DNA of 64,000 nt, taken from Chitinophaga terrae (ex Kim and Jung 2007) (GTDB lineage Bacteria; Bacteroidota; Bacteroidia; Chitinophagales; Chitinophagaceae). Of the stretch, positions 21,482 to 24,719 are shown piece after piece. The translations under genes and the position numbers were made by a program. The stretch lies in assembly GCF_900107795.1 (NCBI RefSeq), contig NZ_FNRL01000002.1, forward strand, positions 310,001-374,000, read 5' to 3'. Each line of letters starts with the position of its first letter. Positions within the stretch are counted from its first letter, which is position 1. The notes below the pieces were generated by a model, which had not been told where the DNA came from, did not search any database, and worked only from the letters and a program-made list of their open reading frames with translations.

Positions 21482-22168
21482 TTAATGCGTATACTGGTTA
21501 AGTTGCAAGATCAGTTCAGGGTCAGGACAGTTTCGCAGGTATTTTTCTTTTTCGCTGTATTTGCAAACGCCGGGGTAATCGCCTCTCATACCCTGCATGT
21601 CTTCTATGATCTGGAAGTGTAAATGAGGCGGCCATCCGCCGTTTTCTGCCGGCGTACCAAAATTAGCCAGCAGTTCGCCCGCCTTTACAGGCATGTGTTC
21701 GTATAGCCCTTGCAGGTTGGAGATGCTTAGGTGTCCATACAGGGTATAGAAAGAATGCCCGTCCAGGTGATGTTGCAGGATGATGGTGGCGCCATAATCG
21801 CCGAAGTGATCATTGAACCGGAAGCTGTGTACATGGCCGTTCAATGGCGTAAAGATCTCAGTGCCGGCTTCGCCCCAGATGTCGGTGCCCAGGTGCAGCC
21901 GCCGGGGTTCATCGCCTGCATCGAAATGCGGGCTTACCGCGTAGATGGTCCGGTGCTCAGCATAGCCGCCTATTCCCAGCCTGCAGCCAGCCGATTCCAG
22001 GGTTGACTGGATATACCTGCTGAATTTATTTATATCCTGCAGGATGGCTTTGGTAAGCGTGGTGTTGTTAGCTGTAAAGTCCATTACCAACAGGCTTTCA
22101 TGCTCGCTGAGGAGCGGTACCACCGGCCGGAATTTTGACTGATGTTTCTTTAGTACCTCCTGTAACAT
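21482..22168 (-). CDS. M23 family metallopeptidase without signal peptide
   Basis: The 228-residue protein has the LytM/M23 zinc site: H92 and D96 in HLGTDIWGE, and H182/H184 in PPHLHFQ. The first 80 residues are a helical and beta region with no signal peptide or membrane helix, unlike cell-wall M23 enzymes. M23 domains of this type also occur inside larger proteins that join a kinase-like domain and a class III aminotransferase (recalled, not checked), so a non-peptidoglycan substrate in the cytoplasm is possible. It is transcribed away from the Lgt-like operon. Confidence 0.85.
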   Translation of the reverse strand: MLQEVLKKHQSKFRPVVPLLSEHESLLVMDFTANNTTLTKAILQDINKFSRYIQSTLESAGCRLGIGGYAEHRTIYAVSPHFDAGDEPRRLHLGTDIWGEAGTEIFTPLNGHVHSFRFNDHFGDYGATIILQHHLDGHSFYTLYGHLSISNLQGLYEHMPVKAGELLANFGTPAENGGWPPHLHFQIIEDMQGMRGDYPGVCKYSEKEKYLRNCPDPELILQLNQYTH

Positions 22169-22233: not shown

Positions 22234-22992
22234 TTGCAGTTTCCTGTATATATCAACTTTTTATCGCTACATCTGCCGCTGCATGCAGCAACAGAAACCC
22301 TGGGAATGTTTATCGGCTTCCGGTATTTCCTTTACCTGAGGCGGAAGCAGGGCGATTACATCAATAGTAATAACCGCATCTGGATCATTATAGGCGCTAT
22401 TTTCGGGGCTTTAGCCGGCAGCCGCCTGCTGGGGGCGCTGGAAAACCCGCCTGCCTTTTTTCATGCCGGCAATCCGCTTCTTTACCTGTATCTCAACAAA
22501 ACCATTGTTGGCGGCTTGCTGGGAGGATTGATCGGAGTAGAGCTCACGAAGAAAGTCATAGGAGAGAAAACCTCCAGCGGCGATCTTTTCGTTTCCCCCC
22601 TTATCCTTGCCATGATCATTGGGCGAATAGGCTGTTTTTCGATGGGGGTATATGAAGAAACCTACGGTATTGCCACAACCCTGCCCTGGGGCCTGAACCT
22701 GGGAGACGGCGTTTCGAGGCACCCTGTGGCCTTGTACGAGATCCTTTTCCTGGTTGCTTTATGGGCGACTATAGCTTTTTTGCAGAAGAGTTACAGCTTA
22801 GAGAACGGGGCACGTTTTAAAATGTTTATGATAGGTTACCTGGCTTTCAGGCTCCTGTTAGATTTCATAAAACCAGGGTACAGGTATTTTGCCGGCCTGG
22901 GTTCCATACAGCTGGCCTGCCTGGCAGGACTGATATATTATGCCCCATCTATTATTTTTCCGTCACGACTGATAAAGAAGCAATATGCCTGA
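22234..22992 (+). CDS. Divergent Lgt-like membrane protein (prolipoprotein diacylglyceryl transferase family)
   Basis: The 252-residue protein has about seven membrane helices and the Lgt fold: R131 in MIIGRIGCFSMG (matches E. coli R143), RHPVALYE at 162-169 and R206 in YLAFRLLLDF (matches R239). The His that precedes GGL in typical Lgt is Val here (V92 in TIVGGLLGG), and the usual Asn in GRIGN is Cys. It is therefore probably not the housekeeping Lgt but a relative that moves a glycerolipid part to another acceptor; that is inference. The start is TTG at 22234. It overlaps the radical SAM gene by 8 bp. Confidence 0.8.
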   Translation: MQFPVYINFLSLHLPLHAATETLGMFIGFRYFLYLRRKQGDYINSNNRIWIIIGAIFGALAGSRLLGALENPPAFFHAGNPLLYLYLNKTIVGGLLGGLIGVELTKKVIGEKTSSGDLFVSPLILAMIIGRIGCFSMGVYEETYGIATTLPWGLNLGDGVSRHPVALYEILFLVALWATIAFLQKSYSLENGARFKMFMIGYLAFRLLLDFIKPGYRYFAGLGSIQLACLAGLIYYAPSIIFPSRLIKKQYA

Positions 22993-24394
22993 AAAGAATT
23001 ACACGTATTACGATTTCACCCTGAGCATCTGCAGCACCTGCCTGCGCAGGGTAGATGCAAAGATCATATTTGAAGAAGGGAAGGTGTTTATGGTCAAACA
23101 CTGCCAGCAACACGGAATGGAAAAGGTGTTGATAGCTACGGATATTGACTATTACAAGAATACCCGCAACTATAACAAGCCTTCTGAGGCGCCGCTTAAA
23201 ACAAATACTAAAACGCATTATGGATGCCCCTACGACTGTGGCCTCTGCCACGATCATGAACAGCATTCCTGTTTGAGCGTAATAGAAGTAACAGACCGCT
23301 GTAATCTTACCTGCCCGACCTGTTATGCCATGTCGTCGCCCCATTACGGCCGTCACAGGACCCTGGAAGAGATAGAGGCCATGCTGGACATCATCGTGGC
23401 AAATGAAGGACAGCCGGACGTGGTGCAGATAAGCGGCGGCGAACCTACTATACATCCGCAATTCTTCGAAATACTGGATATCGCCAAAACCAAACCTATC
23501 CGTCACCTGATGATCAACACGAACGGGATCAGGATCGCGAAGGACAAAGAGTTTACAGCCAGGCTGGCTACTTATATGCCCGATTTCGAGGTATACCTAC
23601 AGTTCGATTCTTTCAGACCATCGGTGCTGGAAAAAATGAGGGGAAAGGATCTTACAGATACCCGGCAACAGGCAATTGAAAACCTGAACGAGGCGGGACT
23701 CAGCACTACCCTGGTAGTTACCTTGCAGAAAGGAATGAATGACGATGAAATAGGCCAGATCATTGATTACGCGCTGAAACAACCCTGCGTACGGGGCGTG
23801 ACTTTCCAGCCGGTGCAGGCAGCAGGTAGAACAGACGAATTCGACCCGTCGACAGACCGTATGCCATTAACGGAAGTACGGCAGCAGATACTGGCCCAAT
23901 CGCCTGTCTGGACGGCTAACGATATCATTCCCGTTCCCTGCAACCCCGATGCCTTAGCTATGGCTTACGCCCTGAAGATAGACGGACAGGTGTTCCCGCT
24001 GACCCGGTATGTGGACCCGGCGGTTTTACTGAATAACGGGAAAAACACCATCGTGTATGAACAGGACGAACGGTTGCATCAGCACGTGTTGAAGATCTTC
24101 AGCACGGGTATCTCTACGGATGCGGCGGTGAACGATATGCAGTCGCTGCTCTGTTGCCTGCCGCAGGTACAGGCGCCAGGGTTAAGCTATAAGAACCTGT
24201 TCAGGATCGTTATCATGCGTTTCCTCGATGCATACGACTTTGATGTAAGGGCGATAAAAAAGTCCTGTGTACACATTGTACATAAAGATGGACGTATTAT
24301 CCCTTTCGAAACAATGAACCTTTTTTACAGGGATGATAAGGAAGAATACCTGAAAGAATTACAGAAAGAACGCGAGTTTTCTCACATTATTTAA
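22985..24394 (+). CDS. Cys-rich radical SAM enzyme, tetraether-synthase (Tes/MJ0619)-like
   Basis: The 469-residue protein has the radical SAM cluster motif CNLTCPTC (C106, C110, C113) followed by the SAM-binding ISGGEPT. Before it lie extra metal ligands: CSTC (C16, C19), C40 and H43, resembling a rubredoxin-like site, and GCPYDCGLC (C81, C85, C88) plus C96. This N-terminal pattern matches, from memory, the family of archaeal MJ0619 and the tetraether lipid synthase Tes, which joins isoprenoid chains through C-C bonds. It overlaps the Lgt-like gene by 8 bp, so a lipid or lipoprotein substrate in the membrane is likely. Other COG1964 roles remain possible. Confidence 0.8.
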   Translation: MPEKNYTYYDFTLSICSTCLRRVDAKIIFEEGKVFMVKHCQQHGMEKVLIATDIDYYKNTRNYNKPSEAPLKTNTKTHYGCPYDCGLCHDHEQHSCLSVIEVTDRCNLTCPTCYAMSSPHYGRHRTLEEIEAMLDIIVANEGQPDVVQISGGEPTIHPQFFEILDIAKTKPIRHLMINTNGIRIAKDKEFTARLATYMPDFEVYLQFDSFRPSVLEKMRGKDLTDTRQQAIENLNEAGLSTTLVVTLQKGMNDDEIGQIIDYALKQPCVRGVTFQPVQAAGRTDEFDPSTDRMPLTEVRQQILAQSPVWTANDIIPVPCNPDALAMAYALKIDGQVFPLTRYVDPAVLLNNGKNTIVYEQDERLHQHVLKIFSTGISTDAAVNDMQSLLCCLPQVQAPGLSYKNLFRIVIMRFLDAYDFDVRAIKKSCVHIVHKDGRIIPFETMNLFYRDDKEEYLKELQKEREFSHII

Positions 24395-24404
24395 ATAGCG
24401 TATT

Positions 24405-24665
24405 ATGAGTTCCTTTACCAGACTGCTTTTGATCTTTGTGGCTATCCCCATAGTTGTTATTTTAATCGGGGGATTATTGGCGGGATTGGAGGGTATGCTG
24501 GAAGCCCTGATCTTCGCCGGCTTCCTGTTAGTGGTTTATCTTGTTGCGGCGCTGATCTGTTTTATTCTCGACCATCGCGATGCCGGGAAGGCGCTTTTAT
24601 TATCTGCGGGTATTATACTGTTGATAGGGTTATCGACCTGCGGGATAATGCTGGGTATGAGTTAA
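24405..24665 (+). CDS. Small membrane protein of unknown function
   Basis: The 86-residue protein is nearly all hydrophobic, with three predicted helices (about 5-27, 31-53 and 62-84) and a short charged loop DHRDAGK. It starts 10 nt after the radical SAM stop and belongs to the same operon, which suggests an accessory or scaffolding role for that membrane system. No motif was recognised. Confidence 0.7.
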   Translation: MSSFTRLLLIFVAIPIVVILIGGLLAGLEGMLEALIFAGFLLVVYLVAALICFILDHRDAGKALLLSAGIILLIGLSTCGIMLGMS

Positions 24666-24690: not shown

Positions 24691-24719
24691 AAAACGGCGA
24701 AGATCATCTTCGCCGTTTT
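24691..24719. terminator. Bidirectional terminator between the radical SAM operon and leuS
   Basis: A perfect 14-bp palindrome, AAAACGGCGAAGAT (24691-24704) with 24706-24719, flanked by A-rich and T-rich sides. It ends 9 nt before the leuS stop. Confidence 0.93.

Follow-up and report, generated by a model that had tools for sequence, protein, structure and literature searches.

A conserved module of an Lgt-like enzyme, a Tes/TrsS-fold radical SAM enzyme, and a small cysteine-bearing membrane protein in Bacteroidota

The present study demonstrated by comparative genomics that three genes located in the window (the whole 64,000-nucleotide stretch of Chitinophaga terrae DNA analyzed here), encoding an Lgt-like integral membrane enzyme, a radical SAM enzyme of the Tes/TrsS fold, and a small three-helix membrane protein, constitute a conserved and strongly co-inherited module. 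The reading that we tentatively favor, at a probability somewhat short of even, is that the module is dedicated to lipid modification and has three parts, in which the Lgt-like enzyme would lipidate a cysteine of the small protein and the radical SAM enzyme would modify the lipid.

The open reading frames reported in a preliminary description of the window, including the 8-bp overlap of the two enzyme genes and the 10 nt between the radical SAM stop codon and the small-protein gene, were confirmed at their exact coordinates (Table 1). The TTG start of the Lgt-like gene agrees with the start conserved in its family (MxFP). In the source genome of 6.63 Mb, the left neighbor of the operon is a divergent peptidase-like gene, named from sequence alone (21482-22168, minus strand), and the right neighbor is the convergent leucyl-tRNA synthetase gene; for the hairpin lying before the latter, the scan gave a call solely on the minus strand.

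Table 1. Genes, metal-binding sites, and other features of the operon, in window coordinates
Feature	Position	Strand	Remarks
Lgt-like integral membrane enzyme, PF01790	22234..22992	+	252 aa, TTG start; paralogue of canonical Lgt
Tes/TrsS-fold radical SAM enzyme	22985..24394	+	469 aa; rubredoxin-like, N-terminal 4Fe-4S, and radical SAM sites
Three-helix small membrane protein	24405..24665	+	86 aa; predicted N-in/C-out; candidate lipid acceptor
Rubredoxin-like site C16, C19, C40, H43	23030..23113	+	Equivalent to GDGT-MAS C9, C12, C33, H36
N-terminal 4Fe-4S site C81, C85, C88, H91	23225..23257	+	Equivalent to GDGT-MAS C73, C77, C80 and H83
CX3CX2C radical SAM motif, C106, C110, C113	23300..23323	+	
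Codon of C79, conserved Cys at predicted outer end of helix 3	24639..24641	+	Motif G-[FL]-[SG]-x-C
Terminator-like hairpin, 13 pairs	24691..24719	.	Separates the operon from the convergent leucyl-tRNA synthetase gene

Conservation and co-inheritance of the three genes

The gene-neighborhood survey proposed in the preliminary description was carried out on 80 homologous radical SAM loci, which belong to Bacteroidota wherever the taxon was named, and the pair proved to be conserved: the Lgt-like gene adjoined the radical SAM gene, mostly with an overlap, in about 70 of the 80. In 76/80 loci, the radical SAM gene was followed by a small membrane ORF (62-110 aa with two to four hydrophobic segments, as defined by a hydropathy criterion), which adjoined that gene even where no Lgt-like gene was linked (L061, L065, L072, and L075). 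The Lgt-like gene was absent or distant at 11 loci, and nine of the corresponding genomes carry one. Tandem copies of the small-protein gene were seen at L009, L015, L016, L017, and L135, the first copy at L009 being devoid of the cysteine.

Of the 392 genomes of Bacteroidota that were compared, 31, distributed over 17 genera, encode a member of the close radical SAM family. The Lgt-like family was present in all 31 of these genomes versus 2/361 of the others (G017 and G179; Fisher p = 6e-44, a value overstated owing to the relatedness of the species), and the G179 protein clusters with canonical Lgt in the tree. In G017, an Lgt-like gene of the partner clade was observed (L110, 1414-2259), with no close radical SAM homologue found in that genome. 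Both enzyme genes were present or absent together within genera (e.g., g12, g13, and g20), and they were found together even when dispersed, namely as three module genes on three contigs in G034 and as two enzyme genes on two contigs in G279. Judged from these genome comparisons, the two enzymes are functionally coupled, also where they are unlinked, as the preliminary description had supposed from the operon. The profile of the small protein gave a weak scan, in which 10/148 genomes matched, seven of them radical SAM-positive. An orphan small protein carrying the Cys motif was observed in G013 (L153), which belongs to the same genus as G034 and has no close radical SAM homologue.

The preliminary description had placed the system in Bacteroidota; the pair is conserved there, although it is not confined to that phylum, since it also occurs in Mycobacterium and Nonomuraea. 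A related enzyme pair is encoded in Actinomycetota by overlapping genes in Nonomuraea and by closely spaced plasmid genes in M. avium and M. branderi, and G096, a genome of the Bacteroidota phylum, carries a pair of the Actinomycetota type. The radical SAM proteins of this type have lost the N-terminal cluster cysteines and retained the CC...PFC cysteines, indicating that the two radical SAM types differ in their clusters and share the partner. Small proteins comparable to that of the window adjoin the pair, lie within it, or neighbor one of its genes in G096, G121, G133, G167, G242, G279, and G388, and two each were found in M. avium and M. branderi, where they are located between the enzyme genes. 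No Cys-bearing small protein was found near the Nonomuraea locus, and among the listed neighbors of radical SAM relatives that have no Lgt-like partner, none was a small Cys protein. The mycobacterial plasmid modules (L115, 3126-6446; L126, 4364-7557) each contain two tandem small Cys proteins, and horizontal transfer of these modules is suggested by the approximately 80% identity between their radical SAM proteins and the Nonomuraea one.

Folds, ligands, and family placement of the two enzymes

The radical SAM protein contains the domains PF04055 (E=2e-29) and Zn_ribbon_HMPTM (E=2e-18), and its closest relative is that of C. silvatica (94% identical). Its predicted model, which is poor at residues 372-399, aligned with GDGT-MAS over 398 residues (VIA-align Z 40.0, rmsd 2.6; Foldseek E 3e-35), with the second-best family reaching Z 19.7. 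The CxxC...CxxH rubredoxin-like site and the GCPYDCGLC and CNLTCPTC motifs named in the preliminary description were all found, and C16, C19, C40, and H43, the N-terminal 4Fe-4S ligands C81, C85, C88, and H91, and the radical SAM cysteines C106, C110, and C113 were invariant in 81/81 sequences. H91 aligns with H83 of GDGT-MAS and is taken here as the conserved His ligand.

The C-terminal part differs. M411 preserves Met439 of GDGT-MAS and C428 preserves C456, whereas C455 is replaced by S427, C470 by E442, C438 by Ile in 81/81 sequences, and Tyr459, which is not essential in GDGT-MAS (PMC9433317), by Ile. The designation of C455, C456, and C470 as candidate ligands of the C-terminal cluster is drawn from the alignment, the text of PMC9433317, in the part available to us, naming none. 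In GDGT-MAS, a hydrophobic lipid pocket is present and the C-terminal cluster domain is the proposed site of a cluster-bound intermediate (PMC9433317); as the candidate ligands of this cluster are replaced, Tes chemistry should not be assumed for the present family. The family has extra invariant cysteines at positions 96, 268, 319, 390, and 391, and C319, C390, and C391 might build a different cluster. Among the NCBIfam models, TrsS (NF045646) scored best, with 328.1 bits against a cutoff of 490, and Tes (NF045702) gave 281.9 bits against a curated cutoff of 450. The Tes identity given in the preliminary description thus holds for the fold and fails for family membership, which was rejected because of the NF045702 cutoff and the replaced candidate ligands. 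An anti-phage role was likewise rejected, since the matches were confined to those of viperin type, which cover the radical SAM core and reach about 50 bits.

As to the Lgt-like protein, the Lgt fold suggested by the preliminary description was borne out: the sequence matched PF01790 with 70.5 bits (threshold 24.9, E=1.8e-19), and the AlphaFold model (pLDDT 93) matched E. coli Lgt in Foldseek (E 6e-8) and aligned with 5azb over 239 residues (Z 13.5, the next entry having 6.2). The score for the equivalog model TIGR00544 was 32 bits, below the cutoff of 118.9, and a stronger, canonical-type Lgt match sits elsewhere in the same genome; therefore, this protein is not the housekeeping Lgt. R131 and R206, the equivalents of R143 and R239 that are essential in E. 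coli Lgt (PMC4728403), were invariant in 44/44 Lgt-like sequences. The positions of E. coli Y26, H103, and N146 are occupied by His17, Val92, and Cys134 in the Lgt-like protein and by Ser, Tyr, and Cys in the canonical-type Lgt of the same genome. The argument that the loss of H103 and N146 proves an altered Lgt activity was accordingly rejected, since the genome's own canonical-type enzyme differs there too. In a tree computed without an outgroup, the canonical, Bacteroidota-type, and Actinomycetota-type proteins formed three separate clades.

The small membrane protein and the proposed lipid modification

The third gene, to which the preliminary description had given no role, encodes a protein that is conserved as a partner of the two enzymes and has one nearly invariant cysteine. 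In the alignment of 76 small proteins, from which the uncertain ORF L050 was removed and to which that of the window was added, a Cys occupied the same near-C-terminal column in 75/76. The residue at position -2 was G, S, T, or A in 86 of the 88 Cys-bearing sequences, a count slightly favored by the script, which decided between several C-terminal cysteines in favor of those having a small residue at this position. In the same 88 sequences, the Cys lay at a median of 18 residues past the last basic residue, and this spacing resembles that of lipoprotein signal peptides. The segment from helix 3 through the Cys had a mean pairwise identity of 36% versus 20% in the rest of the protein. The N-terminus and loop 2 are basic and loop 1 is acidic, and this charge pattern predicts an N-in/C-out orientation. 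A canonical lipobox ([LVI][ASTVI][GAS]C) was detected in only 1/76 proteins within the last 30 residues and in 4/76 within the first 35.

From topology, conservation, and fold, we infer the following possible sequence of events. The small protein would reside in the inner membrane, its Cys lying at the end of helix 3 that faces the periplasm, where Lgt also acts, and the Lgt-like enzyme may transfer a diacylglyceryl group from phosphatidylglycerol to the thiol of this Cys. The recognition motif would be non-canonical, with a small residue at -2 and no lipobox, so that the small protein would be lipidated and probably not cleaved. On the cytosolic side, the radical SAM enzyme may perform radical chemistry on lipid chains, those of the donor lipid before its transfer being the likeliest target. 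This would yield a small membrane protein bearing a radical-modified glycerolipid. The co-occurrence, the unlinked cases, the Actinomycetota pair, the small protein at 76/80 loci with its charge pattern, its better conserved helix 3, and its Cys with a small residue at -2 and a signal peptide-like spacing, the lack of such a protein among the listed neighbors of radical SAM relatives that have no Lgt-like partner, the equivalents of R143/R239, and the fold of GDGT-MAS, an enzyme with a lipid pocket, speak for this three-part model; the rarity of the lipobox, the Nonomuraea locus, the orphan in G013, the replaced candidate ligands of the C-terminal cluster, and the predicted location of the radical SAM enzyme and the Cys on opposite sides of the membrane speak against it. 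The more specific reading, that this is a new kind of protein lipidation occurring in at least two phyla, in which a polytopic protein would receive a radical-altered diacylglyceryl group on a Cys located where its last helix meets the outer face, with neither lipobox nor cleavage, is rather unlikely in our estimate.

Other explanations have to be weighed against the same data. One is the remodeling of free lipids, which takes up the idea of the preliminary description that a carbon-carbon bond or a methyl change would be made on a membrane lipid or lipoprotein. Here, the radical SAM enzyme would couple or alter lipid tails in a Tes-like manner (e.g., tails of the iso-C15 type), a different lipid or a head group would receive the diacylglyceryl group from the Lgt-like enzyme, and the small protein would serve as an anchor or as a lipid-presenting or redox subunit. 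We regard this as somewhat unlikely, although the GDGT-MAS fold of the radical SAM model agrees with it and a role of bacterial Tes homologues in making membrane-spanning lipids has been proposed (PMC8941075). A subunit should keep its contact surfaces, whereas here conservation is concentrated in helix 3 and one Cys and the rest of the small protein has drifted (53% identity with the C. silvatica counterpart, against 94% for the radical SAM protein); the replaced ligand candidates also tell against this explanation.

A lipidated RiPP-like pathway, in which the small protein itself would be the cytosolic substrate of the radical SAM enzyme before being lipidated by the Lgt-like enzyme, would follow the precedent of DAG-RiPPs, in which MNIO-modified lipopeptides are lipidated via the lipoprotein pathway (PMC12636315), and would suit the small genes that stay by the radical SAM gene with no linked Lgt-like gene. 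It is distinctly unlikely, as the sole conserved reactive residue of the small protein is the Cys at its predicted outer face, the remainder being mostly hydrophobic helix, and the closest structure, GDGT-MAS, has its lipid pocket and no peptide site (PMC9433317). The Lgt fold and the catalytic arginines would equally fit a second Lgt serving ordinary lipoproteins beside an unrelated radical SAM neighbor; this is very improbable given the near-perfect co-occurrence over 17 genera, unlinked cases included, the related pair in a second phylum, and the separation of the Lgt-like clades from canonical Lgt.

The preliminary description had considered the system to be undescribed in Bacteroidota. 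Bacterial Tes homologues themselves had already been reported and proposed as brGDGT enzymes, a function without experimental test (PMC8941075), and bacterial Tes matches have been counted in metagenomes (PMC11868695), neither paper giving an experimentally confirmed function; in contrast, no description of the Lgt pairing, the triad, or the small protein was found in the open-access literature searched. One stated hope is that bacterial Tes homologues explain the membrane-spanning lipids of bacteria. For one family of these homologues, a specific transferase partner and a candidate acceptor have now been found, which makes the question directly testable. If the acceptor model is true, the module would represent a new bacterial route of protein lipidation and would advise caution, since a bacterial Tes homologue would not always be a marker of tetraether-like lipids.

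Comparison with known systems

Compared with GDGT-MAS/Tes (MJ0619, PDB 7tol/7tom), the radical SAM protein shares the fold over its full length, the rubredoxin-like CxxC/CxxH site, the N-terminal 4Fe-4S ligands, the radical SAM motif, and the equivalent of Met439. It differs in its identity of 30-33%, the replacement of C455, C470, C438, and Y459, the extra invariant cysteines, and its partnership with an Lgt-like enzyme and a small Cys protein. Two Tes-like radical SAM genes that represent another type were observed in the Bacteroidota phylum (L138 and L139), with no Lgt-like gene seen nearby, and the L139 protein scored 432 bits versus the 450-bit Tes cutoff.

The TrsS radical SAM (seleno)protein (NF045646) is the top-scoring NCBIfam model, although the score remains below its cutoff. 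TrsS-like relatives occur in M. vanbaalenii and in a haloarchaeon and likewise score below the cutoff; in each, a methyltransferase gene follows the radical SAM gene, and neither an Lgt-like nor a small Cys protein was seen near these loci. On the M. vanbaalenii plasmid (L112, 3296-8336), CcdA-like, protein disulfide oxidoreductase, and second radical SAM genes lie upstream; on the haloarchaeal plasmid (L114, 5488-8149), a low-molecular-weight phosphatase gene and the methyltransferase gene flank the related radical SAM gene.

Canonical Lgt (E. coli, PDB 5azb) resembles the Lgt-like protein in fold and in the equivalents of R143, R239, Y235, G142, G145, and G154. Unlike it, the present protein belongs to a separate clade with approximately 20% identity and has a shorter GRxG-to-RHP region.

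DAG-RiPPs resemble the present module in combining a small substrate protein, a metalloenzyme, and diacylglyceryl transfer, the last being proposed here (PMC12636315). Whereas DAG-RiPPs use an N-terminal signal peptide, a canonical lipobox, the ordinary lipoprotein pathway, and an MNIO (PMC12636315), the candidate acceptor here is a three-helix membrane protein that is accompanied by its own Lgt-like partner and a radical SAM enzyme.
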